Of a stretch of 64,000 nt of DNA, positions 9,814 through 25,675 are shown one piece after another (position 1 is the first letter of the stretch; each line of letters starts with the position of its first letter). Below the pieces are notes generated by a model. It saw only the letters and a program-made list of their open reading frames with translations, had not been told where the DNA came from and made no database searches. Source of the DNA: Woeseia oceani (GTDB taxonomy: Bacteria > Pseudomonadota > Gammaproteobacteria > Steroidobacterales > Woeseiaceae); NCBI RefSeq assembly GCF_001677435.1, contig NZ_CP016268.1:496001-560000 (forward strand), written 5' to 3'. The position numbers and the translations under genes are program-made.

Positions 9814-10278
9814 TGCGGATTCCCTGAAGGTTATCCCGTTGGTGGACAAGGCGCGCCCCATCGGGCCTGCGCCGGACAGCCAGTTTACCGGAAGCCGGCA
9901 CGCAGTGTCCGGGTGCAATTTCAAGCTTCAGTGGCCGCTGCAGGCAACTTCTGCAATAGCCATAAGCTGCGCGCCGAACGCCAGGGCGGGACCCATGAAC
10001 GGGCAGATGCGCATTGCCAATGCACTGCTTTTTGCTGGCTCTGTGCATTTCTGCACGCGGTCGCTCGTCTCTCGACGGCGCCAAAATGCTGCGCGTTGCG
10101 CCATCTAAAATGCTGCGCTGTGGGGTACCAGCCACAGCTTGGCACCAACTCTGAAATTTGTGTGGTGCTACCCGCACTATCGCTTTGTTGTTAGCTTGCC
10201 TCAATCGGCGATTCCCGGTTGGCAGTATTGGCAATCGGGTTCGATGCAGGACTCAGCAAAATTTTGGGGGACAGTCTA
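9814..10278. other. Non-coding region upstream of the TonB-dependent receptor gene
   Basis: A 465-base gap between the divergent nudC and receptor genes. The frames here have no protein-like composition. It contains a 12-base direct repeat AAAATGCTGCGC at 10083 and 10107, the motif TTGGCACCA at 10139-10147, a GGTACCA at 10124-10130 and a reversed TGGTGCTACC at 10162-10171. The last three sit where an activator or repressor of the receptor gene could bind. Confidence 0.5.
10139..10147 (+). promoter_or_regulatory. Candidate taurine-regulon operator, copy 1 (TonB receptor)
   Basis: TTGGCACCA, followed by A, so the site is nearly palindromic (TTGG-CA-CCAA). It lies 131 bases upstream of the receptor gene start. 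The same nonamer recurs upstream of pta/tpa and of xsc. The link to the MocR-type regulator encoded at 24144-25607 is inferred. Confidence 0.45.
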
Positions 10279-13200
10279 ATGGTTGGTTTGGAAAATCTTC
10301 TTCGTCGCATTGCAGTGGGCACACTGACATTGTTTTGTGCGATGCAGGTGAATGCGCAAGGAGCAGCTGCTCAGGGCGGCGAAGATGATCAGGAGCTGGA
10401 AGAGATCGTCGTAACGGGGTCGCATATCAGGGGCGTGCAGATCGACGGAATTCTGCCGGTTTCCGTTATATCGTCCGACGACGTCGATGCGATTGCACCG
10501 AACTCCGGTGCAGAGATGCTGACGACAATGTCGCAGGCTGACGTTTCGTTGTTTGAAGATATCGGCTCGGTAGATCGTGCTTCCATTCAAAGCGCACGTG
10601 GTGACGTGGCGGCACTCAACCTGCGCGGCATGGGCTCTTCGAACACGCTGGTCCTGCTCAACGGGCGCCGGATTATCCAGCACCCGGGAACGCAGTTCGA
10701 AGGCAATGTAATCGCGACTACCGTTAACACCAACACTGTCCCTTCTCGCGGAGTACAGCGTGTTGAAGTGTTGTCTGACGGCGCGTCTGCGCTGTACGGC
10801 ACGGACGCTACAGCCGGTGTGGTCAATACCGTACTGATGAAGGACTTCGAAGGCCTGACGTTAAGCGGTCGTTACGGCGGCGCAGAAGGCATCGACTACA
10901 CCCACCGAACCCTTTCTGCTTACTGGGGCAAGGACTTCAATCAGGGACGGACCAACGTTTCCGTATCGCTGAATCACTTCAGTCAGGACGGCTATCTGGC
11001 GACAGAGCACGATTTCTCGCGTTCTGAAGATCTGCGCCCATTGTTTGAAGGCACGCCATGGGAGGGGGACCTGCAGCTCGATAACCGTGCGACTTATACA
11101 GCGTGGGGTACCTTCCGCACTATCGGCAATGTGCCGGTTAGCAACGCCGACAACCGTATAACCACGGCGACGGGGCAATTCCACATTCAGCCCAATACCC
11201 TGCCCGGTTGCCGGGCGGACTTGCCGGGCGATATCTGCATGGACGATTTCGGAATCAGTCGCGACCAGCGACTGGACAGCAATCCGCAACGTTCGATGCG
11301 CCCCGATCTGGAACGCATCAACGCGTTTACGTTCATCAACCACGACCTGGGCAATGGCCTGGAGTTTTTCGGTGAAGCAGGTACTTACCGGGGTGTTCTG
11401 GAACGCCAGATCGAACCCGGCTGGTTCGCACCGTCGACCACCTTTACGGTAGGCAGAAACGCTTACTGGAACCCGTTTGGCCGCGAATTTCTCGACGACG
11501 GTTCGCCGAACCCGAATCGCCTGCCCGGGATCGATGCACCGGCCGAAGGGCTTGATATCGAGCTTTCCGCCTACCGCACCATGGATTTCGGACCGCGCAT
11601 CTACAAGGTCACCAACAACAGTCATCGACTGCTCGGCGGCTTGCGTGGCGAATGGGGTAACTGGGGTTGGGAAAGCGCTGTGCTCTGGTCACGTGCCGAT
11701 ACCGAAGATCGGACCAATGGCATCAGTAACGTTGCGTTCTTTGAGGCTTTGAATCGAACGGATGCGACGGCCTACAACCCGTTCAACGGCTTTTGTAATG
11801 ACGACATCAATGGTGTTAACGCTGTCGACTGTACACCCAGCCCCGCGGCGACGATCGATGACATAACCATCAGTGCATACCGCAAGAACAACACGGAGAT
11901 GGCGCTAGCGGACTTCAAAATGTCGAACGGCGAACTGTGGCTAATTCCGGGCGGTTACGTCGGTATGGCACTCGGTGCGGAAGTCCGGCGCGAGAGCTTT
12001 GAGGAAGACCGCGATCCGCGTATGGATGGCACAATCACCTATACCGATACGATTACGGGCCTGTTCTCCGACAGCGATCTGCTCGGCATGAGTTCAACGC
12101 CCGACTTTAGCGGTTCTCGAAACATCTTCTCCGCGTACTCGGAGTTGTTGATTCCGATCGTTAGCGAAGGTATGGACATTCCGGGTATCGAATCACTCGA
12201 TATGCAGCTCGCAGCACGTTATGAGCACTACAGCGATTTCGGTAGTGTATTGAAGCCGAAAATTGCCATCGGTTGGCACATCATTGAAAGCCTGCAAATC
12301 AGGGGCTCGTACACCGAGGGCTTCTCTGCACCGGCGCTGGAAGTCGTCAATGCGCCACGCATCGTGCGTTCGTCCAATGGCATCGAGGATAACTATCGTT
12401 GCCAGGCAGGCATAAACAATGGACTGTATGCGGACATGGGTGATTGCGACCTCAGCTACGGCGTTATTACGCCGTACATAGGCAATACCAACATTGGACC
12501 TGAAGAAACCACCAGCTATGCCTTTGGCATGACCTACCAGCCGCCGTTTATTGAAGGCATGACACTGACGCTGAACCGTTGGGCAATCGAGCAGGAAGGT
12601 ATCTTTGGTGGCATCGGCGTTCAGGATACGGCTGAGCTTGACTGGGCTACACGGCTGTCAACCGGTGAAGCGTACGCGGACGTAGAGCGTGCCCCGGTAA
12701 CGCAGGAAGACATCGACTATTACGCCGGATCCGGGCTTGAGCCTGCCGGCGAAATGCTGACTATTAATCGACGTTTTCTGAACCTTGAGTCGCGAACAAC
12801 CAAGGGTGTGGATTTTGGTATCGACTACCGATTGAACAATTTGAGAATTGGCGATACCAAACTCGGCGGTATGCGCATCAAGTTGAGTGCGGCCTACCTG
12901 GAAACGGCCTACCAGAATTTCACGCCGTTGCTGCAGTTGATTAAGGACGTCAGCGAGGCGAATGATTCTGGCATCCTGGTTACCGCTGCTGGCGAATTGC
13001 GTGGTCGGGATCGTCGTCCCGCCTGGCGGGGCACGGCAACGATTACGTGGTGGAGGGAAAACTGGGGAGCAGGCTTGTTTGCCCGCTACGCAGGTACCGT
13101 GATGGACACTTCGTTGGAGTTGGACGGTCCTGAACTTGAATACCGCCACTTCATGCCGGGAACCACAGTCAACGCGCACGTTGACTACCGTTTCCGTGGT

Positions 13201-13350
13201 GGTTCGTTCGATGGTCTGACAGCACGTATCGGCGCACGCAACCTGCTGGACCGTGATCCGCCGCTGGCGGACGCGACCTTCGGCTATCCCGCGTGGATGG
13301 CATCGCCAGAAGGCCGCTACCTGTACGGCCAGTTAACTTACCGATTCTGA
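10279..13350 (+). CDS. TonB-dependent outer membrane receptor
   Basis: A 1023-residue TonB-dependent receptor for active uptake across the outer membrane. A signal peptide (about residues 1-27, ending near VNAQG) is followed by the plug domain with EEIVVTGSHIRG, NLRGMGSSNTLVLLNGRR and VEVLSDGASALYGTDATAGVVN, and then a long beta-barrel ending in aromatic YGQLTYRF. ATG at 10279 is preceded by GGGGG eight bases upstream. The IVVTGSxIRG form is typical of the large IrpA/OmpS-like receptors for organic nutrients. It is 64 bases before an amidohydrolase and a symporter in the same direction, which suggests an organic amide or peptide-like substrate. Its ligand is not readable from sequence. Confidence 0.93.
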   Translation: MVGLENLLRRIAVGTLTLFCAMQVNAQGAAAQGGEDDQELEEIVVTGSHIRGVQIDGILPVSVISSDDVDAIAPNSGAEMLTTMSQADVSLFEDIGSVDRASIQSARGDVAALNLRGMGSSNTLVLLNGRRIIQHPGTQFEGNVIATTVNTNTVPSRGVQRVEVLSDGASALYGTDATAGVVNTVLMKDFEGLTLSGRYGGAEGIDYTHRTLSAYWGKDFNQGRTNVSVSLNHFSQDGYLATEHDFSRSEDLRPLFEGTPWEGDLQLDNRATYTAWGTFRTIGNVPVSNADNRITTATGQFHIQPNTLPGCRADLPGDICMDDFGISRDQRLDSNPQRSMRPDLERINAFTFINHDLGNGLEFFGEAGTYRGVLERQIEPGWFAPSTTFTVGRNAYWNPFGREFLDDGSPNPNRLPGIDAPAEGLDIELSAYRTMDFGPRIYKVTNNSHRLLGGLRGEWGNWGWESAVLWSRADTEDRTNGISNVAFFEALNRTDATAYNPFNGFCNDDINGVNAVDCTPSPAATIDDITISAYRKNNTEMALADFKMSNGELWLIPGGYVGMALGAEVRRESFEEDRDPRMDGTITYTDTITGLFSDSDLLGMSSTPDFSGSRNIFSAYSELLIPIVSEGMDIPGIESLDMQLAARYEHYSDFGSVLKPKIAIGWHIIESLQIRGSYTEGFSAPALEVVNAPRIVRSSNGIEDNYRCQAGINNGLYADMGDCDLSYGVITPYIGNTNIGPEETTSYAFGMTYQPPFIEGMTLTLNRWAIEQEGIFGGIGVQDTAELDWATRLSTGEAYADVERAPVTQEDIDYYAGSGLEPAGEMLTINRRFLNLESRTTKGVDFGIDYRLNNLRIGDTKLGGMRIKLSAAYLETAYQNFTPLLQLIKDVSEANDSGILVTAAGELRGRDRRPAWRGTATITWWRENWGAGLFARYAGTVMDTSLELDGPELEYRHFMPGTTVNAHVDYRFRGGSFDGLTARIGARNLLDRDPPLADATFGYPAWMASPEGRYLYGQLTYRF

Positions 13351-13363
13351 ATAAATCACGACC

Positions 13364-13399
13364 AGGCCCATCGTGGGGGAGACTCCCCGCGATGGGCTT
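13364..13399 (+). terminator. Strong stem-loop between receptor and amidohydrolase genes
   Basis: CCCATCGTGGGG (13367-13378) pairs with CCCCGCGATGGG (13385-13396), with one G-T wobble, and the stem extends by a few more pairs on each side. No run of T follows, so it is more likely an attenuator or mRNA-stabilising hairpin that lowers expression of the downstream genes than a full terminator. Confidence 0.5.
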
Positions 13400-13414
13400 G
13401 TGAGGAGCTGTGGA

Positions 13415-15169
13415 ATGCCGACTACCCTGATCCGGTCGCTCGTTGTAGTGCTGTTTGCCAGTGCGACTGCCTTCGCTGCCGATAAGGCCGACTTCGATGT
13501 ATTGATTACCGGCGGCACTGTCATCGATGGCAGCGGCGCTGCTGGCTACAAAGCCGATGTCGGCATTGTCGATGACGAAATTGTTGCGATTGGCCCGGGT
13601 CTGGGGAAAACCCGTTCAGCGGCACGCACGATCGACGCAACCGGGCAGGTGGTTGCGCCTGGCTATATCGATGTCCATACGCACGCCGACAAAGCGGTGC
13701 TTGGTGACGAAAAGAGCCGGCGGGCGGCGCTCAATTTGCTTTATCAGGGCATAACCACCATCAACATCGGTGCCGATGGCCGGCATTCCAGAAAATACGC
13801 AAATCGGGTCAGGGGACAGATCGCGAAACAGTACAAGTTTCTCGAATCGCAGCCGGCGGGCATGAACATTTTCGTTCTGCTGGGCCATGACAACATCCGT
13901 AAAGAAGTAATGGGTGCGGACGACTACAAGCGCTTCAGCACGGACAAGGAAATGTCCAGAATGGCTGATCTGGTTCGTCGTTACATGAAAGAAGGCGCGC
14001 TCGGCATGTCGCTGGGCCTGGAGTATGCCAGCGGCCGCTATTCCGACGAGGAAGAGCTGGTTTATCTGGCGAAGGCAGTGGCCGATTACGATCGTCGCGG
14101 GATCATCATCGCGCACGAGCGCGCAACCGGCCCGCAGCACCGTTACTACCTGCCCAGTGGCCACAATGCCGATGGCCTGTACGAAGACCGTTTCAGAAAA
14201 TACCCCGATGGCTGGGACGTAATTGACTACGTAAAAGAGGGTATTCGTATTGCGGAGCAGTCAGGCGTTGTTTTCGATTTCACCCATTTTAAGATCACCC
14301 ATCAGTCTTACTGGGGCAAGGCGCGCGAGATCATCGACCTGATCGAAGAGGCGCGCGGACGCGGCGCGAAAATTTACGCCGAGCAGATCGCGTTCACGAA
14401 TTCAGGCAACAGCCCAATGAACCTCAGTCTGATCCCCACCAAATACTATCGGGGTAAGGACTACTCGCTTGATGAATTGCTGCAGACGCTGGAAAACCCG
14501 AAAAAGAATATGGAATTGCGCGCCGATATTGCCTGGCAAATCGACAAACACGGTGGTCCCGAGTCCGTCGAGTTGATTGCAAGCAAGCGCCAGCCACAGT
14601 GGGTGGGCCAGACATTGCTGGAAATTGGCCAGGAACTGGGCATGAGTGATCCCGTCGATGTCGTGCTGGAAGTGAAGAAGCGTGGCGATGCGACTCTACC
14701 CAATGGGGGCCGTTACCGTTCAATTCAGACCTTGAGTGCCGAAGATATCGACGAGTTCGTAAAACAAGACTGGTTTGGTACAGTCACGGACGCAGGTATC
14801 TACGACCTCGATGGTGGTTTTGCGCAGCCGCGGGTATTCGCGTCTTTTACCAACAAGATCACTGAATTCGTATTCGAGCGCAAAGCGATAACGTTAGAGC
14901 ATGCGATCCGGGCAGGCACTGGATTGCCAGCGGAAATGTTGTCATTGTCAGGTCGTGGCTTGCTCAAGGAAGGTTACAAAGCCGACGTGCAGGTATTCGA
15001 CCCGGATGCACTCGCGGTCAATGCGCGTTGGACGTTACGTAACTCGAGAGCGTATTCGAGTGGCATGTCTTACGTACTGGTGAACGGGGAGTTTGCGCTG
15101 GACAATGGCAAACCGACTTTTGAAATGGCCGGGCAAGTCATTCGCAACAAGGACGCTTGGAAACACTAG
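13415..15169 (+). CDS. Exported amidohydrolase of the N-acyl-D-amino-acid deacylase family
   Basis: A 584-residue metal-dependent amidohydrolase (M38-like/D-aminoacylase group). Residues 1-21 are a signal peptide ending near TAFAADK, so it acts in the periplasm or outside. The metal site begins with PGYIDVHTHADK; QGITTINIGADG, IIIAHERATG and DFTHFKITHQSYWGKA follow the family order. The C-terminal composite beta domain has FDPDALAVNAR. Start ATG 13415 follows GAGGAG. Family members hydrolyse N-acyl amino acid amide bonds, so cleavage of an N-acyl amine brought in by the adjacent receptor is plausible. The true substrate is unknown; N-acyl taurine is my suggestion from context. Confidence 0.88.
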   Translation: MPTTLIRSLVVVLFASATAFAADKADFDVLITGGTVIDGSGAAGYKADVGIVDDEIVAIGPGLGKTRSAARTIDATGQVVAPGYIDVHTHADKAVLGDEKSRRAALNLLYQGITTINIGADGRHSRKYANRVRGQIAKQYKFLESQPAGMNIFVLLGHDNIRKEVMGADDYKRFSTDKEMSRMADLVRRYMKEGALGMSLGLEYASGRYSDEEELVYLAKAVADYDRRGIIIAHERATGPQHRYYLPSGHNADGLYEDRFRKYPDGWDVIDYVKEGIRIAEQSGVVFDFTHFKITHQSYWGKAREIIDLIEEARGRGAKIYAEQIAFTNSGNSPMNLSLIPTKYYRGKDYSLDELLQTLENPKKNMELRADIAWQIDKHGGPESVELIASKRQPQWVGQTLLEIGQELGMSDPVDVVLEVKKRGDATLPNGGRYRSIQTLSAEDIDEFVKQDWFGTVTDAGIYDLDGGFAQPRVFASFTNKITEFVFERKAITLEHAIRAGTGLPAEMLSLSGRGLLKEGYKADVQVFDPDALAVNARWTLRNSRAYSSGMSYVLVNGEFALDNGKPTFEMAGQVIRNKDAWKH

Positions 15170-15183
15170 CGTTGAAGTAAAAA

Positions 15184-16824
15184 ATGCGGGCTCCAGGGGT
15201 GGGGTCGGTCAATGGGGAGAGGACACTGCACGCGCAAGACTCAGGAGTTCATCGCATACGATGGAGAGATAACGCCAGGTCCGGATTTGCCACTTTTGCC
15301 GTCACTATTTTGGCGCTGTTGCCGTCGATTTCTGCGGCACAGGGCCTGGATATCGACCAGCTGATCGACGATACAGTCGCGCCACTCGCTGAGTTTGTCA
15401 GTAGTGTGATTTTCTACAGTGTTCCGGTTCTCGGCGCAGACGTCCCTTTGATTGTTGTCTGGTTGATTGCCGGCGCATTGTATTTCACGCTGAGTTTCGG
15501 CTTCATCAATGTACGCGGCTTTCCGCATGCATTGAAGGTAGTGCGCGGTGACTACGCGAAAGCCAGTCACCCGGGCGAAGTCACTCACTTCCAGGCTCTG
15601 GCCACAGCCGTATCCGGTACTGTGGGCATCGGCAATATCGGTGGTGTGGCGGTAGCTATCGCTGCCGGCGGACCGGGTGCGGTGTTCTGGATGATCGTGG
15701 CTGGCATGCTCGGCATGTCCACCAAATTCGTCGAATGTGCCCTAGGTACTATGTACCGGCGCACGCACGCTGATGGCACTGTATCCGGTGGTCCGATGTA
15801 CTACCTGGAGCGCGGTCTCGCGGAGTGCAACCTGCCACGCCTCGGCAATGCGATGGCGAAGTTCTACGCGATTGGACTTGTAATCGGCTGCCTCGGCATC
15901 GGCAATATGTTCCAGTCGAATCAGGCTTACATTCAGTTCGTCAGCGTCACCGGCGGGCAGGACGCGAGTTGGTTCAGTGACAAAGGCTGGTTGTTCGGGA
16001 TTTTGATCGCCGCCATAGTTGCGCTGGTCATTGTCGGTGGCATCAAAAGCATCGGCCGGGTTACCGAGAAAATGGTGCCGTTCATGGCGGTGCTGTATTG
16101 CATCGGTGCGGTGACAATAATCACCTTTAATTATGAAGCTCTGCCTTACGCCGTTTCAGCAATATTCACCCAGGCATTCAACCCGGAAAGCCTGAGCGGT
16201 GGTGCTATCGGTGTGATGATTATCGGCTTCCAGCGCGCCGTGTTTTCCAACGAGGCCGGTATCGGTTCGGCAGCGGTTGCGCATTCGGCGGCGCAAACGA
16301 AAGAGCCCATTGCAGAAGGTTATGTTGCTCTGCTTGAGCCGTTCATAGATACCATTGTGATTTGTACGCTGACTGCATTGGTGATTATTACCGCGTCTTA
16401 CTACGACCCCGGCATTACCCAGATTCCCGACGGTATCGCCATGACGTCCGGCGCGTTCGAACGCAGTGTCTCGTGGTCACCGTACGCCGTGGCTTTCGCT
16501 GGATTCCTGTTCGCCATTACCACCGCTATTTCCTGGTCGTACTACGGCTTGAAAGGCTGGACTTACCTGGTCGGCAAGAGCACGTGGGCGGACTATAGTT
16601 TCAAGACGGTATTTTGCTTGTTCCTGATTGTTGGCTGTTCCATCCAGCTGGAGTCCGTGCTGAGTTTCTCCGATGCGCTGGTGTTTGTTATCTGCGTACC
16701 GAATATTCTTGGCTTGTTGATACTGACGCCGACGCTGAAACGCCGCTTGGCCGGTTACGATCAACGCGTGACTGACGGCAAAATTGTGGATCAAAGTCTG
16801 GCGACCGAGAGCCGTACGTCCTGA
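15184..16824 (+). CDS. Sodium:alanine/glycine symporter family (AGCS) transporter
   Basis: A 546-residue inner membrane transporter of the AGCS family, with about ten or eleven hydrophobic segments from residue 90 on and the family motifs GTVGIGNIGGVAVAI, GGPMYYLERGL and FSNEAGIGSAAVAHSAA. The N-terminus contains a cleavable-looking hydrophobic stretch ending SISAAQG before the first transporter helix, and the precise start is uncertain. It follows the amidohydrolase by 14 bases in the same operon. AGCS proteins carry small amino acids with sodium; import of taurine or another released amine is inferred from the neighbours only. Confidence 0.88.
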   Translation: MRAPGVGSVNGERTLHAQDSGVHRIRWRDNARSGFATFAVTILALLPSISAAQGLDIDQLIDDTVAPLAEFVSSVIFYSVPVLGADVPLIVVWLIAGALYFTLSFGFINVRGFPHALKVVRGDYAKASHPGEVTHFQALATAVSGTVGIGNIGGVAVAIAAGGPGAVFWMIVAGMLGMSTKFVECALGTMYRRTHADGTVSGGPMYYLERGLAECNLPRLGNAMAKFYAIGLVIGCLGIGNMFQSNQAYIQFVSVTGGQDASWFSDKGWLFGILIAAIVALVIVGGIKSIGRVTEKMVPFMAVLYCIGAVTIITFNYEALPYAVSAIFTQAFNPESLSGGAIGVMIIGFQRAVFSNEAGIGSAAVAHSAAQTKEPIAEGYVALLEPFIDTIVICTLTALVIITASYYDPGITQIPDGIAMTSGAFERSVSWSPYAVAFAGFLFAITTAISWSYYGLKGWTYLVGKSTWADYSFKTVFCLFLIVGCSIQLESVLSFSDALVFVICVPNILGLLILTPTLKRRLAGYDQRVTDGKIVDQSLATESRTS

Positions 16825-16869
16825 TTCTGGCTACAGCAAAGTCATTGCCCTGATCCACTCGGCCAGTGC

Positions 16870-17799
16870 TTAGTGAGTGGCGTTAGCGGCGCAATAAATG
16901 GATGCCAGCGCAGCGCTGGCGACTCTGGCTTCGGGTGGGTCTGAGCGCGAGGTCAGCATGATGGGTGCGGTTGCCCCCAGCACCAGGCCGGCAGCGGTGG
17001 CACCGAGATAATGCACCATTGCCTTGAACAGTATGTTGCCCGCTTCGACACTGGGGACCAGCAGCACGTCCGCCTGACCAGAAACATCGCTCTTGTAACC
17101 TTTGAGCGCTGCTGCATTCGCTGACACGGCAATGTCCATCGCGACCGGGCCGTCAAGCAGCGCGCCTTCAATTTCACCCTGTGCGGCAAGCTTTGCCAGT
17201 TGTTCTGCTTCGATGCTTGAGGGCATTGAAGTGTTCGCCTTTTCAGTGCCGGACAGGACCGCGACACGCGGCATCGCTATCTCGAGTGCGTGCAGCAGTG
17301 ACACAGCGTTCCTGGCGATGGCCAGTTTTTCGGCAAGCCCCGGCAATACATTGATAACGGCGTCTGTTACGCAGACCGCACTGGCTTGCTCCGGCACGCT
17401 GAGGTGAAACACGTGACTCAGTCGCGAGCCGCACAGTATGCCGTTGTGCTTGTCGATGACGGCACGCAACAGTACGTCGGTCGCAATGTCGCCTTTCATC
17501 AATCCGGCTACTTCCGAGGACCTGGCCAGGCTGACCGCTATTCGCGCCGCGGCTGAATCCGAGTCGCTGGGCACCTGGCGAATAGCCGAAATGTCCCATG
17601 CCAGCGTTTTCGCGTGACGTTCGATACTGCATTTGTCGCCAATCAGGACCGGCTCCAGCAAGCCCTGTTGGCAGGCAAGATAGGCGCTGTTCATCGTCTG
17701 CAGACTGCTGCAGTTCACGATCGCCGTGCGGATAGCGTTGTGCCTCCCTGCGATGGACAGCAGGTCAGACGGGCAGCGTGAGGTGATGTGTCCGTGCAT
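16870..17799 (-). CDS. pta: Phosphate acetyl/butyryltransferase
   Basis: A 309-residue enzyme of the phosphotransacetylase family (Pta/Ptb domain), converting acetyl phosphate and CoA to acetyl-CoA. Family features include GLMKGDIATDVLLRAV, GSRLSHVF, EGALLDGPVAMD, ADVLLVPSVEAGNI and LGATAPIMLTSRSD. It is divergent from tpa across a 312-base control region. Acetyl phosphate is the product of Xsc in taurine breakdown, and pta commonly stands beside tpa and xsc, so that role is favoured over butyrate metabolism. The start at 17799 is the first ATG and could be a little further in. Confidence 0.85.
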   Translation of the reverse strand: MHGHITSRCPSDLLSIAGRHNAIRTAIVNCSSLQTMNSAYLACQQGLLEPVLIGDKCSIERHAKTLAWDISAIRQVPSDSDSAAARIAVSLARSSEVAGLMKGDIATDVLLRAVIDKHNGILCGSRLSHVFHLSVPEQASAVCVTDAVINVLPGLAEKLAIARNAVSLLHALEIAMPRVAVLSGTEKANTSMPSSIEAEQLAKLAAQGEIEGALLDGPVAMDIAVSANAAALKGYKSDVSGQADVLLVPSVEAGNILFKAMVHYLGATAAGLVLGATAPIMLTSRSDPPEARVASAALASIYCAANATH

Positions 17800-18111
17800 A
17801 GGTTTCGGTGTTCCAGCGCTTCCCGCCTTGCCCGGTTGTTCGAGGTCTGATGGCGGGTCGCCGGTGCTTTGTAATCAGTCGAAGAAGGCAAAATAGCGAA
17901 GCCCGCCTTGTCCCGGTAGAGCCATAGCGAACCCTTTTTTGGCACCAGGCCATGCGCTATTCGGGTTCGACTAATGCCCGCGTTGCCAGTGCCGGCTGGC
18001 AGACTCTGGCAGGCGCTCTGGTACAAAAAGTTACCGCGCTTTGGTTCTTTTCCGCTCCTCGCAGGGGGCTTATCGTCTGCTCATTGTTTACTGTTGCGCT
18101 GGAGCCGGGAA
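17800..18111. promoter_or_regulatory. Divergent control region between pta and tpa
   Basis: A 312-base non-coding interval. It holds the shared motif TTGGCACCA at 17939-17947 near its middle, flanked by an inverted repeat CGAACCC (17928-17934) and GGGTTCG (17963-17969). Another interrupted palindrome, GGTA-CAAAAAGT-TACC, lies at 18020-18035. GGAG before 18112 is the tpa ribosome site. Divergent promoters are expected but I do not see clear -35/-10 pairs. Confidence 0.5.
17939..17947 (+). promoter_or_regulatory. Candidate taurine-regulon operator, copy 2 (pta/tpa)
   Basis: TTGGCACCA preceded by a run of T and followed by GG. It lies 139 bases upstream of the pta start and 164 bases upstream of the tpa start, so one site could serve both genes. 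Confidence 0.45.
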
Positions 18112-19500
18112 ATGCAGGCGATCGAGAAGAATCAGAGTTACGACGACATCAAACGGATGGATCGCGACGGTGTCTGGCATCACCTGACGCAGCACAGTGT
18201 TTTCGAGCACAAGTACCCGACGATCATGGCGCGTGCCGCTGGCATGAACATCTGGGATATCGACGGCAACCAGTATCTCGATGCCGTATCCGGTGGACTG
18301 TGGACCGTCAATGTTGGCTACGGACGCGAAAGAATCGCCAATGCTGTGCGTGATCAACTGGTTGAGATGTGCTATTTCGCCGGAGTTTCCGGAACGATCC
18401 CCGGCGCGTTGTTTGCCGATAAATTGCTGAGCAAGATGCCCGGTCTGTCGCGGGTCTATCTGTCGAGTTCCGGATCGGAAGCCAATGAGAAAGCTTTCAA
18501 GATCGTTCGCCAGATTGCGCATCTGCGGCACAACGGACAAAAGCACAAGATCATCTACCGCGAACGTGATTACCACGGCACGACAATCTCGACGCTCAGC
18601 GCATCGGGCCAGGAAGAACGGCGCGGGCAGTACGGTCCGTTCACGCCGGGGTTCGTCGAGATGCCTCACTGCTCCCGCTATCGAAGTCAGTATGGCGATG
18701 TGCACGACTACGGTGAGCGGGCCGCCCGTGAGTTGGAAGCTGTAATCCAGCGCGAGGGGCCGGACAGTGTCGGCGCAGTGATTCTCGAGCCGATTACCGC
18801 GGGTGGCGGGGTCATCACTCCGCCAGAGGGCTACTGGAAAATCATTCAGGAGATCTGCCGGCAGTACCAGCTGCTGCTGATTCTGGACGAGGTGGTGTGT
18901 GGTGTCGGGCGGACCGGCAAGTGGTTTGGCTATCAGCACTACGACGTACAACCCGATATCGTCACGATGGCCAAAGGTGTTGCATCGGGCTACGCGCCGA
19001 TTTCCTGCACCGTCACTACCGAGGATGTGTTCCAGCAGTTCGTCGCCGACCCGGCAGACCGAATGGCCTACTTCCGCGATGTGTCAACGTTCGGTGGTTG
19101 TGCCTCGGGACCGGCCGCTGCGCTGGAAAACCTGCGCATCATCGAGGACGAAAGCCTGCTTGATAACGTCGTCGATATGGGTGCTTACCTGATGGATCGC
19201 CTTCTCGAGCTGAAACAACGGCATGCCATGGTCGGTGACGTGCGTGGCAAAGGGCTTTTTGCAGGTCTGGAGCTGGTCAGCGACCGGCATACCAAAGAAC
19301 CGGTTGCCGAAGCCGTTGTTGCCGGCATAGCCGCCGACTGTATGGCGCATGGCGTGATCATCGGCCGCACTAACCGGAGCTTCCAGAAGTTCAACAACAC
19401 ATTGGCCCTGAGCCCGGCGTTCATTGCCAATCAACGGGACATCGATGCCATTGTGGATGCGTTGGATGCCGCCCTTGGGCGGGCAACAGGACCCGTTTGA
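18112..19500 (+). CDS. tpa: Taurine-pyruvate aminotransferase (class III)
   Basis: A 462-residue PLP aminotransferase that would convert taurine and pyruvate to sulfoacetaldehyde and alanine. Residues GSEANEKAF (121-129) bind the cofactor phosphate, LILDEVVCG places Asp259, and Lys288 in TMAKGVASGYAP is the Schiff-base lysine. The N-terminus DRDGVWHHLTQH and the overall form fit the Tpa/omega-aminotransferase group. I chose ATG 18112 over the longer frame from 17974 because GGAG precedes it and the family starts here. The taurine assignment rests mainly on the xsc, pta and MocR neighbours; beta-alanine or another omega-amine is the alternative. Confidence 0.85.
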   Translation: MQAIEKNQSYDDIKRMDRDGVWHHLTQHSVFEHKYPTIMARAAGMNIWDIDGNQYLDAVSGGLWTVNVGYGRERIANAVRDQLVEMCYFAGVSGTIPGALFADKLLSKMPGLSRVYLSSSGSEANEKAFKIVRQIAHLRHNGQKHKIIYRERDYHGTTISTLSASGQEERRGQYGPFTPGFVEMPHCSRYRSQYGDVHDYGERAARELEAVIQREGPDSVGAVILEPITAGGGVITPPEGYWKIIQEICRQYQLLLILDEVVCGVGRTGKWFGYQHYDVQPDIVTMAKGVASGYAPISCTVTTEDVFQQFVADPADRMAYFRDVSTFGGCASGPAAALENLRIIEDESLLDNVVDMGAYLMDRLLELKQRHAMVGDVRGKGLFAGLELVSDRHTKEPVAEAVVAGIAADCMAHGVIIGRTNRSFQKFNNTLALSPAFIANQRDIDAIVDALDAALGRATGPV

Positions 19501-19511
19501 GGATACGCGTC

Positions 19512-20813
19512 TTACGGCTTGCGGTAGGCCGGCGGTCGGGCATCGTCAGTTGCGAGGTAGCGGTCCCGCAATAAGGTTTGCCGGGACACTCTCGGTACGA
19601 TTTCCCCGTCAATGATGACCTCTGCAGGGAAACTGCTCAGCTCAAAAGGGTCGTCGCGCCAAACAACAATGTTGGCGCGCTTGCCTGGCTCGATACTGCC
19701 GACTTCGTCATCAACGCCGTAGACCTTGGCGGGTGCAAGCGTTACTGCACGGAGCGCAGTGTCCCAGTTGAGACCGTTTGCGACGGCGATGCCAGCTGCC
19801 TGAGTAATGTTGCGCGCATTGTGATTGTGGCGGCTGCTGTTCGCATCGAGCACTACCTCCACACCCGCCGCAGCCAGCAACGCGGCATTGTCGAGGCGCG
19901 CATTGAAATGGTCAAAGCCGGTAGGCAGATTCGCGCTCGCATCGACGATGACCACCGTGCCGGTCGCGGCCAGTTTGTCGGCCAGGAGCCAGCCTTCGGC
20001 ACCGCCGACGATGACAAGCCGGATGCCGAATTGAGCGGCGAGGTCTACGATGCCGGCCATGTCGCTGGCGCGGTTAACGTAAACAAGCAAGGGCGTATCG
20101 CCTGCGAGCACGGGTTGCAGTGCGATGAGATCCGCCTCGCTTAGTGAATACTCGCTGGTATCCGGCTGTGTGATTCTCCACGCGGAGTAGTCCTTTGCAT
20201 CGGCAAGCGCTGTTCGCAGTTTTTGCAGTGCCATTGCCCGGGACGAGCCGGCGCGTGTCGCGCCACTGACACCGAGGTAGGCAACCATCATCGCCCGTTG
20301 TTTGATGACGGCCGGCGCGTGCGGTCCAAGGTGAACGATGGCGCCGGTGCCGGAGAATACCGAGGCGCTGCCGTCCGCGTCCGTGCTGTCGTTGGCCGTC
20401 GGCGTCACCGCAGCCTGTGTGATGCCCGCGATTCTGGCGACCGGGATCAGCGTGGAGTTCGGATTGAAGGCCGTGGCAACATCGAACGAGGCGGAAAACT
20501 GAAAGCCACGACGAACGGAATCAACAGACGATCCAACGGATTTGACTTCGATCAGACCCAGTTGCCCGAGCGGCGTGAACAGTCCTGGCGTCACCATGCG
20601 ACCTTGCGCGTCGATGACGATGGCGTCATCACGGCCAGTCGGAAGCGGCTCGCCCACGTGCGTAATACGACCATCGTCGATGACGATGCTGGCGTTTTTC
20701 AGCACGCCCTGCGGGCCGACCGTGTGCACAGTCGCGTTTCTGATGACCAGTGTTTCTGCCAGCAATGCGCCCGGCAACAGGGCGAGCGAGAGGGCGATGT
20801 GGCGAATTTTCAT
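19512..20813 (-). CDS. Exported amidohydrolase-like protein lacking the HxH metal motif
   Basis: A 433-residue protein of the amidohydrolase (imidazolonepropionase-like) superfamily with a signal peptide (residues 1-19, ALLAE). The usual PGxIDxHxH strand reads PGLFTPLGQLGL at 77-88, so both metal-binding histidines are missing. The C-terminal part TLAPAKVYGVDDEVGSIEPGKRANIVVW is well conserved. It overlaps the upstream, metal-competent paralogue by four bases (ATGA). Such pairs suggest a hetero-oligomer in which this subunit is structural or regulatory; that is inference. It is convergent with tpa, 11 bases apart. Confidence 0.85.
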   Translation of the reverse strand: MKIRHIALSLALLPGALLAETLVIRNATVHTVGPQGVLKNASIVIDDGRITHVGEPLPTGRDDAIVIDAQGRMVTPGLFTPLGQLGLIEVKSVGSSVDSVRRGFQFSASFDVATAFNPNSTLIPVARIAGITQAAVTPTANDSTDADGSASVFSGTGAIVHLGPHAPAVIKQRAMMVAYLGVSGATRAGSSRAMALQKLRTALADAKDYSAWRITQPDTSEYSLSEADLIALQPVLAGDTPLLVYVNRASDMAGIVDLAAQFGIRLVIVGGAEGWLLADKLAATGTVVIVDASANLPTGFDHFNARLDNAALLAAAGVEVVLDANSSRHNHNARNITQAAGIAVANGLNWDTALRAVTLAPAKVYGVDDEVGSIEPGKRANIVVWRDDPFELSSFPAEVIIDGEIVPRVSRQTLLRDRYLATDDARPPAYRKP

Positions 20814-22195
20814 GGTTGTGCCTCGTGCAGGCTGGTCGTCCCGAGGCTGAAATCAGAGACCGGGTTCGCACTTTGGTCGTCAAGGTCAAATGCGACGGCG
20901 CCATCGATGTACACCCGCACAGGCCGGGCGTAAACGCTGAACGGATTGTGACTCCAGAGCACCAGGTCAGCCATTTTGCCCGGTTCGACGGTGCCGGTTT
21001 GCTCGAGTATTCCCAGTGCTTCGGCGGCGTTCTTCGAGATCCACTGAATGGCGTGTTCGGGAGCTATCTCGATATCGACTTCGGCCGCGGCACGCATGAT
21101 TTTTGCGGCTTCCTGATTCAATCGCTGGATGCCGACCTTGCTGTCGGAATGCACTACGACGCAGGCGTCGGCCTGATCCAGAATTACCCCGTTCGCCGGT
21201 ATGCCGTCGAAGGCCTCCATTTTTGCGCCCCACCAATCCGCCCAGATCGCGGAGCAGATGCCGTTGTCTCTTAACTTGTCGGCAATTTTGTAGGCTTCGA
21301 CCGCATGGTGGAACGCGGTGATCTGGTAGCCAAACTCGTGGGCGACGTCGATCATCAGCGACATCTCGTCGGCACGGTAGCAATGGTTGTGAACGAGAAT
21401 CTCGCCATTCAATGCGCCGGCGAGTGTCTCCAGCTCGAGGTCGCGTTTGGGCTTTTTGCCGTGGCCCTCGGCATGGGCCTGCAGCTTGTCGCGGTATTCG
21501 GTGGCATCGATCCAGGCCTCGCGCACAACGGCAATATTGCCCATGCGCGTAGCTGGCGAACGTCGGCGACTCTTGTACAGCCGTTTCGGGTTTTCGCCAC
21601 ACGCCATTTTCATGCCGTACGGCGCGTCCGGGAATTTCATGTCCATGACGGACACACCGGGCACTGCCTTCAAGGTTACGCCGCGGCCGCCAAACAGGTT
21701 GGCGGAACCGGGCAGTATTTGCAGCGTGGTGATACCGCCGGCCAAAGCTGTAATGAAGGCCGGGTCCTGCGGCCAGACACTGTGTTCCGCCCAGACTTCT
21801 GCCGTGTTGGGCGCAACGGATTCGTTGCCGTCCGAGTGGCCTTCGACACCGGGATTGGAGTAAACCCCAATGTGCGAATGCACGTCGATGATGCCGGGAG
21901 TCAGCCACAGGCCACTCGCGTCGTATTCGCTGGCGGCCCCTGCAGCAAGGTCGCTGCCCACCTGGCGGATTCGGCCGTCTGCAATCAGTACATCGCCATG
22001 CTCCAGCCGCTGACCGGTGCCGGTCAGAATCGTCGCATTCTTCAATAGTACGGCTTGTGCCGGCAGTGGTTGGTAACTGCTGGCAAACGGAACCCTGTCC
22101 GTCGCGGGCCCGGTTTCGGACTCAGCGCCAAAGGCGATGAGCGGCAATGCCACGGCGGCCAGACCGAGGCAGCGACGAACAGCTGAGCGCACCAT
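20810..22195 (-). CDS. Exported metal-dependent amidohydrolase
   Basis: A 461-residue amidohydrolase with an N-terminal export signal (about residues 1-24, IAFGAES). The metal pair is His106 and His108 in PGIIDVHSHIG; later ligands are likely in EILVHNHCYRADE, ITAFHHAVEAY and CVVVHSDSKVG. It lies only three bases after the xsc stop codon and overlaps the next amidohydrolase by four bases, so xsc and both hydrolases form one operon. This genetic coupling suggests hydrolysis of an amide or related bond that releases the substrate for the taurine route. The reaction is not known. Confidence 0.88.
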   Translation of the reverse strand: MVRSAVRRCLGLAAVALPLIAFGAESETGPATDRVPFASSYQPLPAQAVLLKNATILTGTGQRLEHGDVLIADGRIRQVGSDLAAGAASEYDASGLWLTPGIIDVHSHIGVYSNPGVEGHSDGNESVAPNTAEVWAEHSVWPQDPAFITALAGGITTLQILPGSANLFGGRGVTLKAVPGVSVMDMKFPDAPYGMKMACGENPKRLYKSRRRSPATRMGNIAVVREAWIDATEYRDKLQAHAEGHGKKPKRDLELETLAGALNGEILVHNHCYRADEMSLMIDVAHEFGYQITAFHHAVEAYKIADKLRDNGICSAIWADWWGAKMEAFDGIPANGVILDQADACVVVHSDSKVGIQRLNQEAAKIMRAAAEVDIEIAPEHAIQWISKNAAEALGILEQTGTVEPGKMADLVLWSHNPFSVYARPVRVYIDGAVAFDLDDQSANPVSDFSLGTTSLHEAQP

Positions 22196-22198
22196 TGT

Positions 22199-23953
22199 TC
22201 AGACGTACTGCTGGTATTTTTCGAGGTAGCGCACGGGCTTCGACAGGGCATCCCGACGGAACGGGTCGCCCAGTTCCTGGGTGCACATCACTTCGACTAT
22301 CGTCGTGGCACCGTCTTTCTGTTGAGCTTGCAAGGCGTCATCGAGTGCCGGACCGACATCGGCTACATCGCTGACCGTTATGCCGTTGGCGCCCATCGCG
22401 CGAGCAATTCCAGCGAAGCTCTGATTCTCCAGTTCGCCGCCAACGAAGCGGCGGTTGTAGAAGTCCACCTGGTTTTTCTTCTCGGCACCCCACTGGCCGT
22501 TGTTGAATACAACGGCAGTCACCGGAATGTTCTCACGCACGCAGGTCATGGTTTCCATCAGGCTCATACCCCAGGCGCCGTCGCCGACGTAGGCGACCGC
22601 TGGTCGCTCGGGAGCCGCAACCTTGGCACCGATGATCGTCGGGAACGCGTAACCGCAATTGCCGAAACTCATGGCGGCGAAGAAGCTGCGAGGCTGCTTG
22701 AAGCGCAGGTAGCTGTTCGCGACCGAATTGATATTGCCAATGTCGGTGGAGACCATGGCATCGGTCGGCAAGGCTTTTTCCAGTGCTCGCAAAGCCTGGC
22801 GCGGGTGCATGTAACGTCCATCCGCGGCTTTGATGGCCTCGAGGCTGAACTCGTCCTTTTCGTGTATCCAGTCGTTCAGTTCCTGCTCCCAGGCGCTCTT
22901 TTCATTCTTGATCTGGCTGGCACGTTCGTCCCTGGTGGCATCACAGGCGAGTGTCTCGCTGCTGATGCGGCTCAGGATTGCGTCGGCCGCAGCGCCAGCA
23001 TCACCACAAACACCGACGGCGATCTCTTTGACCAGACCAAGCATCTTGTGGTCCGCGTCGACCTGAATAACGCTGGCATCCTTGGGCCAGTATTCAAGGC
23101 CGTACTGCGGCAAGGTGCCGAAGGGTCCCAGGCGTGTGCCGAGCGCGAGCACGACATCCGCCCTGGAGAGCAAGTTCATGCTGGCTTTCGAACCCTGATA
23201 GCCCAGCGGACCACACCAGAGTGGGTGATCGGCGGGGAAGGAATCGTTGTGCAAATAGCTGTTAACGACCGGTGCGCCGAGTCGCTCGGCGAGCGCCTGG
23301 CATTCGGCAACGGCGTTGGCATTGATGACACCGCCACCGGAAATGATGACGGGAAATTTGGCCCTGGCGAGCAATGCGGCCGCCTGGTCCAGCGCATTTT
23401 TGCCGCCGGCGCCTCGTTCAATACGAATGGGCTCCGGAATCTCAACATTTAGGTCGCCGTAGAAGTAGTCGCGCGGGATATTGAGTTGGGTCGGCCCCAG
23501 GTCCGTGAGCGCGCGATCGAAACAGCGGGCGGTGAACTCAGCCATGCGATTCGGGTTGTTTACATGGCCCTGGTATTTCGTGAATTCCTGGAACACCGGC
23601 AACTGGTTGGCTTCCTGGAAGCCGCCCAGTCCCATGCCCATGGTGCCGGTTTCCGGTGTAACGATGACGACCGGAGAATGGGCCCAGTACGCCGCGGCAA
23701 TGCCGGTAACGCAATTGGTGATGCCGGGACCGTTCTGGCCGATACAGACACCGTGCCGTCCACTTACCCGTGAGAAACCATCGGCCATGTGTGCAGCGCC
23801 TTGTTCATGCACAACCGGGATGAAGCGAATGCCGGCGGGTTCGAAGATATCCATGGCATCCATGAAGGCGGACCCCATGATGCCGAAGATATCGGTAACG
23901 CCTTGTGCCACCATCGTTTCGACAAAGGCTTCGCTGGGGGTCATGCGGGTCAT
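22199..23953 (-). CDS. xsc: Sulfoacetaldehyde acetyltransferase
   Basis: A 584-residue thiamine diphosphate enzyme that turns sulfoacetaldehyde and phosphate into acetyl phosphate and sulfite, the desulfonation step of taurine degradation. The start MTRMTPSEAFVETMVAQ, the DIFGIMGSAFMDAMDIF segment and the catalytic Glu50 in VVHEQGAAHMADG are characteristic of Xsc rather than acetolactate synthase. The ThDP motif runs from GDGAWGMS to FNNGQWG. ATG 23953 is preceded by AGGAG. It heads an operon with two amidohydrolases and follows the TauR-like regulator gene. No sulfite exporter or sulfite dehydrogenase is seen nearby, so sulfite disposal must be encoded elsewhere. Confidence 0.93.
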   Translation of the reverse strand: MTRMTPSEAFVETMVAQGVTDIFGIMGSAFMDAMDIFEPAGIRFIPVVHEQGAAHMADGFSRVSGRHGVCIGQNGPGITNCVTGIAAAYWAHSPVVIVTPETGTMGMGLGGFQEANQLPVFQEFTKYQGHVNNPNRMAEFTARCFDRALTDLGPTQLNIPRDYFYGDLNVEIPEPIRIERGAGGKNALDQAAALLARAKFPVIISGGGVINANAVAECQALAERLGAPVVNSYLHNDSFPADHPLWCGPLGYQGSKASMNLLSRADVVLALGTRLGPFGTLPQYGLEYWPKDASVIQVDADHKMLGLVKEIAVGVCGDAGAAADAILSRISSETLACDATRDERASQIKNEKSAWEQELNDWIHEKDEFSLEAIKAADGRYMHPRQALRALEKALPTDAMVSTDIGNINSVANSYLRFKQPRSFFAAMSFGNCGYAFPTIIGAKVAAPERPAVAYVGDGAWGMSLMETMTCVRENIPVTAVVFNNGQWGAEKKNQVDFYNRRFVGGELENQSFAGIARAMGANGITVSDVADVGPALDDALQAQQKDGATTIVEVMCTQELGDPFRRDALSKPVRYLEKYQQYV

Positions 23954-24133
23954 AGTGTTCTCCTGGCTGGGTCACGCGCGCTCCGCTTTCGGGGTTGGCG
24001 TGCCGACGTTTTCAATTCGTGAGTTTGGAATGCGTCGGTGACAGCTGGTGATAGTTTTCTGACCACGCAAACGCTTGCGCTTCATGATAGGCAAAACGGC
24101 TTGGCGGCAGTTAGAACCAGAGCTGCACAGGAT

Positions 24134-24142
24134 TTGGCACCA
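24134..24142 (+). promoter_or_regulatory. Candidate taurine-regulon operator, copy 3 (xsc operon)
   Basis: TTGGCACCA, 180 bases upstream of the xsc start and one base beyond the stop codon of the MocR-type regulator gene. It lies in the 190-base gap (23954-24143) that should carry the xsc promoter. Confidence 0.45.
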
Positions 24143-24143
24143 G

Positions 24144-25607
24144 CTAGGCGGCGGAATCGTTCATCAATTGGTCGGCGATGCGTCCGAGTTCGCGAATGCC
24201 CGGTTCGATTTTTTCCAGCGGAATCGACGAAAAGCCGAGTCTGAAATAGTTGCGTGGAGGTTCGGCGCCCAGGAAATGGATATCGCCGGCTTCAATGAGA
24301 ATACCCGCGGCGGCGGCGCGCTTGCGCAGCAGTCCGGCATTGAGACCGGCGGGGCCCTGAACCCAGACACACGAACCGCCAACCGATTCCGACAATGTCG
24401 CGCTGGGCATGTAGCTGTTGAGCGCTTGTTTGAGTACAGCGTAGCGCTCCCGGTAGGCGCCGACCAGCGCACGCGTCAATGCATCGTGGTAGCCACGGGC
24501 AAGAAACAGCGCCACTGACCGTTGATTGTTGGCGGCCGGGTGCCTGATCATCAGACGGCGAAGCTGGCGCAACTCTGCAATGAAGCGGGTAGAGCCGACC
24601 ACGTAGCCCATGCGCAGGCCAGGGGCCAGTGTTTTTGACAGGCTGCCGACGTAAATGACCCGCTCGTTGCAATCGAGACTCTTGAGGGCGGGCGTCGGGT
24701 TGTCCGAGAACGCAATTTCACTCTCATAGTCATCTTCGATAATGACGAAACTCGAACTGACTGCCCGTTCGAGCAGTTCGTAACGCCGCTGCAGCGACAT
24801 CGTTATTGTCGTCGGCGACTGGTGACTGGGAGTGGCGTACAGGTAATCGCATTCGTCGATGTCCGGCGAGAGGATCAGGCCGTTTTCATCGATAGGCAGG
24901 CCGCGGATCCGGGCGCCACTCAACGAGGCAATGTTTCGAAAATCGACGTAGCCGGGATCTTCGATACCCACCGTGACATCCGCTGACAGCAGCAAGCGCG
25001 CCAGCATGTACAGTGCATGCTGTGCGCCCACGGTGATCAGTATCTGATCGGGTTCCGCCCAGATTCCGCGCCGCGGCAGTATCTGCTTGTGTATCTGATC
25101 GATCAGTACTGAGTCATCGTTGTCCACGTGATCGTTGGCCCAGTCACGTATCGCGCCAACGCTGACTGCATCGCGACAACATTCCCGCCAGTGATTGGTC
25201 GGAAACAGGCTGTGATCGACTTGCCCGTAGATGAACGGGTATTTGTAGTGCTGCCAGTCCTGCGGCTTTCTGATGTTGCGCTGCTCGGAAAGGCTGATTT
25301 TCAGGCGACTGTCCCAGTCCGGCGTCTGCGCGTTTTCGACCGGCTCCGGGACCGGGCGGCTGACTGGGATTTGATTCAGGAACTCGGGATTGACGAAATA
25401 GCCACTGCGTTCGCGCGACAACAGGTAGCCGTCTTCTTTCAGGCGCTGGTAGGCCAGCGTAACCGTGTTGCGGGCAACGCCTAGCTGGCTGGCCAGAATG
25501 CGACTGGGTGGTAGCGGCGTTTCGGCTGTGATGTGACCCTGCGCGATAGCGGCGACGATCTGTTCAACAATCTGCTTCTGCAGGCTGGCACCGCTCTTGG
25601 CCTTCAA
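24144..25607 (-). CDS. tauR: MocR/GntR-family regulator, TauR-like
   Basis: A 487-residue regulator with an N-terminal GntR winged helix (PLPPSRILASQLGVARNTVTLAYQRL, about residues 31-56, is the recognition region) and a C-terminal aminotransferase-like domain. The PLP-binding lysine lies in VGSLSKTLAPGLRMGYV and the DYLYATPSHQSPT segment is present. The frame opens with TTG at 25607; an in-frame stop lies upstream with no ATG between, so TTG or a rarer start must be used. Its position beside xsc fits TauR, which controls taurine genes in Rhodobacter. It could instead sense another amine. Confidence 0.82.
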   Translation of the reverse strand: MKAKSGASLQKQIVEQIVAAIAQGHITAETPLPPSRILASQLGVARNTVTLAYQRLKEDGYLLSRERSGYFVNPEFLNQIPVSRPVPEPVENAQTPDWDSRLKISLSEQRNIRKPQDWQHYKYPFIYGQVDHSLFPTNHWRECCRDAVSVGAIRDWANDHVDNDDSVLIDQIHKQILPRRGIWAEPDQILITVGAQHALYMLARLLLSADVTVGIEDPGYVDFRNIASLSGARIRGLPIDENGLILSPDIDECDYLYATPSHQSPTTITMSLQRRYELLERAVSSSFVIIEDDYESEIAFSDNPTPALKSLDCNERVIYVGSLSKTLAPGLRMGYVVGSTRFIAELRQLRRLMIRHPAANNQRSVALFLARGYHDALTRALVGAYRERYAVLKQALNSYMPSATLSESVGGSCVWVQGPAGLNAGLLRKRAAAAGILIEAGDIHFLGAEPPRNYFRLGFSSIPLEKIEPGIRELGRIADQLMNDSAA

Positions 25608-25663
25608 ATGAAAAAGTTGATAAATGCGTACAACTCCACAGCGTGTTGATCAGGTTGAGCGCA

Positions 25664-25675
25664 TTGTAACTACAA
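25664..25675 (+). promoter_or_regulatory. Palindrome upstream of the MocR-type gene
   Basis: TTGTAACTACAA is a perfect inverted repeat of TTGTA with a two-base centre, 57 bases upstream of the regulator start; a further TACAA lies at 25629-25633. It may be an autoregulatory site. The rest of the 260-base gap 25608-25867 shows nothing else recognisable. Confidence 0.35.

Follow-up and report, generated by a model that had tools for sequence, protein, structure and literature searches.

A taurine degradation locus in Woeseia oceani that may also serve larger taurine-containing molecules

The DNA analysed here, positions 496001-560000 of the single-contig, 4.06 Mb genome of Woeseia oceani (64 kb, called the window below, with positions counted from its first base), carries a nine-gene locus that we read, with a probability of roughly 0.4, as a TauR-controlled locus for taurine and probably for a taurine amide that would not fit through porins. 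The locus suggests, without proving it, that the organism, a member of a marine-sediment family, feeds on larger taurine-containing molecules, since an importer and an exported amide-cutting enzyme are probably under the same switch as the taurine genes. In the route that we propose, a TonB-dependent receptor would move the conjugate across the outer membrane, an exported enzyme of the D-aminoacylase type (DAA) would cleave its amide in the periplasm, and a symporter of the AGCS family would bring the freed taurine into the cell, where an aminotransferase, sulfoacetaldehyde acetyltransferase (Xsc) and a phosphotransacylase would degrade it by steps known for these families. AH1, one of two amidohydrolase-fold proteins predicted to be made from the xsc operon, may cleave a second kind of conjugate, with the other, AH2, as a non-catalytic partner, and a TauR-like regulator would govern taurine breakdown jointly with conjugate import and periplasmic cleavage.

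Genes were called from open frames and from Pfam and NCBIfam profile scores set against the family cut-offs, and the nine genes that an earlier sequence-only reading had listed were all found as open frames at their named places, from 10279 to 25607. The identity of Xsc (22199-23953, minus strand) is certain at the level of its profile, because its TIGR03457 score of 1011.6 bits is far over the cut-off of 676.4. Xsc is a marker of sulfonate breakdown, and in the taurine route as known for these families the aminotransferase yields sulfoacetaldehyde, Xsc converts this to acetyl phosphate and sulfite, and the phosphotransacylase forms acetyl-CoA. Such a route would be made up here of Xsc, the aminotransferase, a phosphotransacylase of the Ptb type and a TauR-like regulator of the MocR family (24144-25607, minus strand; GntR and Aminotran_1_2 domains). 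Relatives are labelled below with G for a genome and L for a locus, W. oceani being G000 in a family set of 107 genomes that includes it. The gene previously called pta (16870-17799, minus strand; PF01515) does encode a phosphotransacylase, which we propose fills the Pta role, and Ptb-type relatives 41-55% identical to it lie beside xsc in G093, G032, G249 and G329; it is not a canonical Pta, scoring 54.6 bits against TIGR00651 (cut-off 311.2) and 312.7 bits against PRK08190 (cut-off 282). Likewise, the gene called tpa (about 18112-19500, plus strand; PF00202) encodes a class III aminotransferase with a homologue, 68% identical, divergent from xsc in G093, and is a candidate taurine:pyruvate aminotransferase (Tpa), though without confirmation by an NCBIfam equivalog: the best match, PRK07678, reaches 465 bits against a cut-off of 488, and none of the 25 matches listed is above its cut-off. 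A search of the G000 genome for TauA (TIGR01729), with other taurine transporter families lying outside it, gave no match at an E-value of 0.001.

What might join the receptor operon to these genes? In the literature, TauR sites are described as direct repeats of CTGGACYTAA (PMC5320631), and we scored each site as a pair of CTGGNNCYAA halves at a spacing of 23 bases, with a maximum of 16 (any base at positions 5 and 6, C or T at position 8). The top scores in the window belong to a repeat ahead of xsc (CTGGTGCCAA-N13-CTGGTTCTAA, 24111-24143, minus strand, 16/16), one between ptb and tpa (CTGGTGCCAA-N13-ATGGCTCTAC, 17916-17948, minus strand, 14/16) and one ahead of the receptor operon (TTGGCACCAA-N13-GTGGTGCTAC, 10139-10171, plus strand, 13/16), the last tied with an unrelated place at 7514. 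The xsc site is the sole 16/16 site in the 4.06 Mb and was equalled in none of 1500 shuffles; the ptb/tpa site is among four genome sites with at most two mismatches and was equalled in five of 1500. The 9-mer TTGGCACCA occurs at 10139 (upstream of the receptor), 17939 (ptb/tpa) and 24134 (upstream of xsc), its only copies in the 64 kb, for a chance mean of 0.83 copies per window, and it was present in 10 of 1500 shuffles of the 354-base region of the receptor promoter. Among spacings from 14 to 33, 23 alone gives a score of at least 13 in all three promoters, a scan that is no independent test since the spacing was taken from these same sites. Direct repeats of the CTGGACYTAA type in target promoters, the mark of the TauR regulon, are thus found at xsc and ptb/tpa, where we consider the predicted sites convincing, and in weaker form at the receptor, where the repeat by itself is suggestive.

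As controls we used the divergent regions between MocR genes and taurine transporter genes, or tripartite ATP-independent periplasmic (TRAP) transporter genes by xsc, of Cereibacter, Paracoccus and Aminobacter. In these three alphaproteobacterial loci the best pair has a spacing of 22 and scores 13/16, and the window motif accordingly appears TauR-like with a spacing one base off (23 against 22). A scan of 25 other loci (483,178 bases) for TauR-type sites of at least 14/16 gave one match. The xsc locus of the gammaproteobacterium G329 (L171 3263-3295, minus strand) has a perfect CTGGACCTAA-N13-CTGGTTCTAA repeat, with the spacing of 23 seen in the window. A search for repeats inside single promoters of the locus gave nothing useful. 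Genome matches to the 11-mer YTTGGCACCAR were rejected as support, 12 of the 13 outside the locus falling inside open reading frames by a mechanical call, one that also placed the ptb/tpa site inside a short overlapping frame, and a sigma-54 reading of TGGCAC was rejected by hand for its unsuitable orientation and spacing. For the regulator itself, the label TauR-like is drawn from its neighbours and from these sites. It is 52-54% identical to MocR proteins a few kilobases from xsc in Caballeronia and Burkholderia, and about 41% identical to three further MocR proteins that are encoded next to tauABC or TRAP genes. The NCBIfam name for it is PdxR, by a score of 340.4 bits just above the cut-off of 320, and this name is probably a misnomer.

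The receptor (10279-13350, plus strand; Pfam Plug and barrel, best family relatives 40-43% identical) is followed by DAA (13415-15169, plus strand; PF07969) and by the AGCS sodium:amino-acid symporter (15184-16824, plus strand; TIGR00835 378 bits, cut-off 272.65), the proposed taurine carrier. All three probably belong to the taurine regulon, because TauR-type repeats with one spacing and a common 9-mer stand at xsc, ptb/tpa and the receptor, and because an AGCS carrier and an exported-looking amidohydrolase lie near xsc in two of the three other family genomes that have xsc. The relatives of DAA in the PDB are an N-acyl-D-glutamate deacylase (3gip) and a D-aminoacylase (1m7j), and its aligned metal ligands His102, His104, His248, His305 and Asp473 are all kept, in what we take to be the roles of His-x-His, His, His and Asp. 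At the position of the D-aminoacylase bridging Cys, presumably that of the NCG motif, DAA has Asp, as do five of the eight relatives compared; the remaining three, one each in G000, G106 and G032, have no His-x-His. In D-aminoacylase-like proteins encoded near AH1/AH2 pairs, at L140 13007-14743 (the resident pair of G000), L144 6432-8168 (G106) and L145 12207-13904 (G032), the sequence NMLSWA takes the place of His-x-His. D-aminoacylase relatives of DAA are 33-38% identical in the family (E <=1e-60) and 32-33% in plasmids. Seven other regions fetched for relatives of the receptor contain no D-aminoacylase, AGCS or xsc. AGCS relatives on plasmids were considered as possibly taurine-linked and set aside, the two regions read (Thalassospira and Deinococcus) listing no taurine genes.

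Within the family, xsc was found in four of the 107 genomes (G000, G006, G032 and G093; E <=1e-150) and AGCS in four (G000, G006, G032 and G047; E <=1e-100). AGCS lies on the xsc contig at a distance of 4.3 kb in G032 and 4.7 kb in G006, where the contig end cuts the locus, and in both it is directly beside a YtcJ-like Amidohydro_3 protein with a lipoprotein-like start (L138 4759-6588 and L139 4613-6328). These two proteins are 64% identical and belong to another subfamily than the window DAA; a second, different YtcJ-like amidohydrolase is present in G006 (L139 2760-4583). The pairing of AGCS with an exported-looking amidohydrolase near xsc is therefore a recurring theme, seen in two of the three other family xsc loci. 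We do not place the AGCS carriers of G006 and G032 in a TauR regulon, because their loci have neither a 13/16 site nor a match to the regulator. In G093, tpa and ptb lie beside xsc, and the 16 kb contig has no AGCS; since the assemblies of G006 (82% complete) and G093 (64%) are drafts, absences from them are weak. Outside the family we took 10 xsc loci from 369 genomes of the class and 5 from 398 genomes of the phylum (E <=1e-200), and these 15 loci, of 10.8 to 19.9 kb and some cut by contig ends, have no match to the receptor, DAA, AGCS, AH1, AH2 or the YtcJ-like proteins. In one of them, L166, the contig opens with a fragment of a regulator-like gene (50% identity, 53 bits) immediately ahead of xsc. 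The exact locus thus appears unique among the loci examined, and the linkage of xsc with the amidohydrolase pair and the receptor, whose conservation the sequence-only reading had proposed as its check, was found only in the window among the four family genomes with xsc and in none of the 15 loci outside. The YtcJ-like enzymes of G006 and G032 were rejected as general markers of taurine loci, as none of 15 places with such an enzyme (E <=1e-150), in 14 of 398 genomes, has xsc or a Tpa of the window type within about 20 kb; one of these places (L227) lies beside a MocR protein of 46% identity.

The amidohydrolase pair has a wider distribution. AH1 (20810-22195, minus strand) begins 3 bases past xsc, as had been claimed for the pair, and overlaps AH2 (19512-20813, minus strand; PF01979) by 4 bp; because the pair sits 3 bases from xsc, this copy is probably on the xsc transcript. 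AH1, here a diverged second copy from a common pair, is found in 39 of the 107 family genomes (E <=1e-60), and G000 has a resident pair at 1.93 Mb whose AH1 and AH2 are 65% and 54% identical to the window copies. A tree of 34 AH1 rows, 31 of them different, groups the window copy with the family in a set of 14 rows (support 98/91). Public loci were taken as the best 80 of at least 588 confirmed, of 6.7 to 21.8 kb each and many cut by contig ends, and AH1 and AH2 are adjacent in 80 of these 80, whose sources include Lysobacteraceae, Colwelliaceae, sphingomonads and Acidobacteriota. We therefore rejected the idea that the pair is by ancestry a device for taurine conjugates: all 80 loci have it, and none has xsc in the available flanks. 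As an observation in its own right, L011-L090 define a widespread pair of exported-looking amidohydrolase-fold proteins, always adjacent, in which AH1 has all metal ligands and AH2 has none. The AH1 ligands H106, H108, K196, H271 and H297 are present in 89 of 89 aligned sequences and D351 in at least 95%; window AH1 departs from 6 of the 119 near-invariant positions, the joint highest count among the 89, and none of the six is a metal ligand. AH2 aligns to structure 3ooq, as AH1 does, without His-x-His at the ligand position; in an alignment of 87 members, none of the columns with 95% conservation is a His, and the window AH2 has a stray HNH elsewhere in the chain. Of the three exported amidohydrolases described earlier, then, DAA and AH1 keep their ligands and AH2 lacks them; the signal peptides of all three were assigned by eye, with no predictor.

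Beyond the locus, a NUDIX hydrolase (8929-9924, minus strand) forms the left boundary and an FlhC-like protein (25868-26458, minus strand) the right; past the latter lie an ABC transporter and an SRAP protein, and neither flank contains taurine genes.

How far do these data carry the proposal of a taurine amide? The results gathered in this paragraph and the next weigh against it, several of them by favouring an alternative. The regulator is 44% identical to a MocR protein beside a tyramine oxidase and no closer to those linked to tauABC (41%), no 13/16 site at spacing 23 was found in five control loci (those of Cereibacter, Paracoccus and Aminobacter, with their best pairs at spacing 22, and the xsc loci of Sinorhizobium and Rhodococcus), and neither a regulator match nor a TauR-type score above 12/16 was found around xsc in G006, G032 or G093. 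The closest relative of the AGCS carrier (68% identical) is in G047, a genome with no xsc match, and AH2 is probably no hydrolase but a partner without catalytic function. The strongest rival, which we regard as quite possible, is that the locus serves free taurine through a carrier shared with a second module: AGCS would import taurine and neutral amino acids, and the receptor and DAA would serve N-acyl-D-amino acids or D-amino-acid peptides, standing in the operon only through their need of the same carrier. Each of the three D-aminoacylase genes found in G000 (E <=1e-60, with 12 of 41 first-look candidates scored) comes after a co-oriented receptor or receptor-like gene, and neither of the two other pairs has xsc, Tpa or AGCS matches nearby. 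G049 has, in this order and without taurine genes, a receptor from the same clade as that of the window (41%), a DAO-family oxidase and a D-aminoacylase, and in G069 a D-aminoacylase lies, without a receptor, near an amino-acid permease and a D-serine-dehydratase-like gene. The same adjacency has been published for marine gammaproteobacteria, where, in the available part of PMC3400609, a receptor gene lies beside the gene of a D-aminoacylase whose substrates are N-acyl-D-amino acids; the window pair differs in being followed by AGCS, preceded by a TauR-type repeat and set inside a taurine locus. The single relative of the AGCS carrier in the PDB (E <=1e-20), the sodium/alanine symporter 6cse, also suits a shared carrier. 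The repeat ahead of the receptor speaks against this rival, as does the fact that two relatives have, near xsc, amidohydrolases of another subfamily in the corresponding position next to AGCS, and no D-amino-acid enzyme was recognised in the taurine locus.

A neighbourhood formed by chance, with the receptor operon and a duplicated amidohydrolase pair as unrelated insertions by an ordinary taurine cluster and the receptor repeat a coincidence, seems to us unlikely, yet several observations are in its favour. The set of receptor, D-aminoacylase, AGCS and xsc occurs in none of the three other family xsc loci and none of the 15 outside; the receptor-operon genes have a G+C content of 0.549-0.562 against 0.583-0.614 for the other locus genes, a difference that may fit separate arrival; and amidohydrolase-like genes are numerous in G000, with 41 loose first-look candidates. 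Nor are the chance rates of the receptor site negligible: when its 354-base region was shuffled 1500 times, 17 of the shuffles scored as high, at least three copies of the 9-mer arose in 3 of 100 window shuffles, and the genome has 63 sites with at most three mismatches (at least 13/16) against 96 for a reversed control pattern. Chance accounts poorly, however, for the 9-mer and spacing common to three promoters, for AGCS and an amidohydrolase near xsc in two relatives, and for a pair placed 3 bases from xsc and probably on its transcript. A further alternative, that AH1/AH2 were recruited beside xsc for a sulfonate or taurine peptide, so that this pair rather than DAA would free taurine, we hold to be very improbable. 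It draws on the operon position, with gaps of 3 bp and -4 bp, and on the faster change of window AH1, whose end branch measures 0.68 where that of the resident copy measures 0.12 (the latter has in addition a 0.14 stem common with its G106 relative), with all ligands kept and the six conserved positions altered. Such change would fit relaxed constraint equally well, and xsc is in none of the available flanks of the 80 best homologous pairs.

We therefore retain, tentatively, the proposal of a TauR-controlled locus that takes in a taurine amide. The part of the sequence-only reading that finds support is the grouping of receptor, DAA and AGCS with the taurine genes, all three probably being in the taurine regulon; the amidohydrolase pair is not taurine-specific, and AH2 looks catalytically dead. 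N-acyl taurines and copepodamides are plausible substrates by ecology only. A broader form of the proposal is more doubtful: taurine-conjugated lipids or other N-acyl taurines would be used by a TonB-fed route with cleavage outside the cytoplasm, sodium-coupled AGCS uptake and Xsc, all within one TauR regulon, and different amidohydrolase subfamilies would have been recruited to this position independently in different bacteria.

Comparison with known systems places the locus between several of them. TauR-type taurine dissimilation loci (tauABC or TRAP, tpa or tauXY, xsc, pta) resemble the window in Xsc, aminotransferase, phosphotransacylase, MocR regulator and direct repeats; the window has AGCS in place of an ATP-binding cassette (ABC) or TRAP transporter, with no TauA match in the genome, a transacylase of the Ptb type and a repeat spacing of 23 against 22, and it adds the TonB receptor and the exported-looking amidohydrolases. 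The naa genes for N-acetyltaurine utilisation were reportedly described by Denger et al. in 2011, and their enzyme is said to be cytosolic. COG1574, we assume, holds the YtcJ-type hydrolases. In the parts of the sources available, the R. pomeroyi annotation includes naaS, naaT and an N-acetyltaurine ABC transporter (PMC4334477), and NaaS is an N-acetyltaurine amidohydrolase (PMC4334477, PMC9870897). COG1574-family and COG523-family proteins and oligopeptide ABC transporters are members of TauR/TauR2 regulons in the corresponding portion of Suvorova and Rodionov (PMC5320631), and we infer that these are the N-acetyltaurine genes. The naa system, as far as these sources extend, pairs a taurine-amide amidohydrolase with a taurine/Xsc route in one bacterium, as proposed for the window, but has an ABC importer and the metallochaperone NaaT (PMC4334477) where the window has a TonB receptor. 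No domain of a naa-type ABC importer or NaaT is present among the nine locus genes. The window enzyme, moreover, is exported-looking and of the D-aminoacylase subfamily, against a naa enzyme said to be cytosolic. It is nearest to D-aminoacylases and not to the COG1574 kind to which NaaS would belong, and against the YtcJ-like proteins it gives an 88-residue match to one from Novosphingobium, with none listed to those of G006 and G032.

Two further systems are closer in parts. For taurine-conjugated bile salts in Caenibius tardaugens, the accessible part of PMC12882949 proposes TonB receptors and deconjugation by an amidase or amidohydrolase; there, expression data are with cholate only, two proposed hydrolases have no predictable secretion signals, and a taurine dioxygenase is named for the freed taurine, where the window has Xsc. 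On plasmid pLA3 of Novosphingobium pentaromativorans US6-1 (L194 4917-15806), the regulator is 50% identical to that of the window, the best alphaproteobacterial one among the plasmid matches listed. Like the window, this locus has a receptor, an exported-looking Amidohydro_3 protein, an amino-acid permease, a class III aminotransferase and a 13/16 site before the receptor; unlike it, it has TauE/SafE and an aldehyde dehydrogenase, an AptA-type aminotransferase, a GABA-type permease and an amidohydrolase of another subfamily, and xsc is neither annotated nor matched there. Its substrate could be taurine, converted to sulfoacetate, or another amine, and we treat it as a parallel and not as proof. 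It may be a second lineage with the same design but lacking xsc. The 38-42% identity of the G006 and G032 YtcJ-like enzymes to the Novosphingobium enzyme was set aside as a special link, since 20 plasmid records reach 36-44%.

In the available part of PMC10850141, copepodamides are taurine-conjugated lipids of copepods and taurine conjugates are widespread in the sea. In the available portions of the literature searched we found no locus, in any bacterium, where outer-membrane import, amide cleavage and Xsc come together for taurine conjugates, the nearest being the Caenibius proposal. That an amidohydrolase may belong to a taurine regulon is known already; what would be new is the export of such an enzyme together with a TonB receptor and Xsc. 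If the proposal is true, the locus names genes to seek in sediment bacteria, and the AGCS carriers would gain a candidate new substrate.

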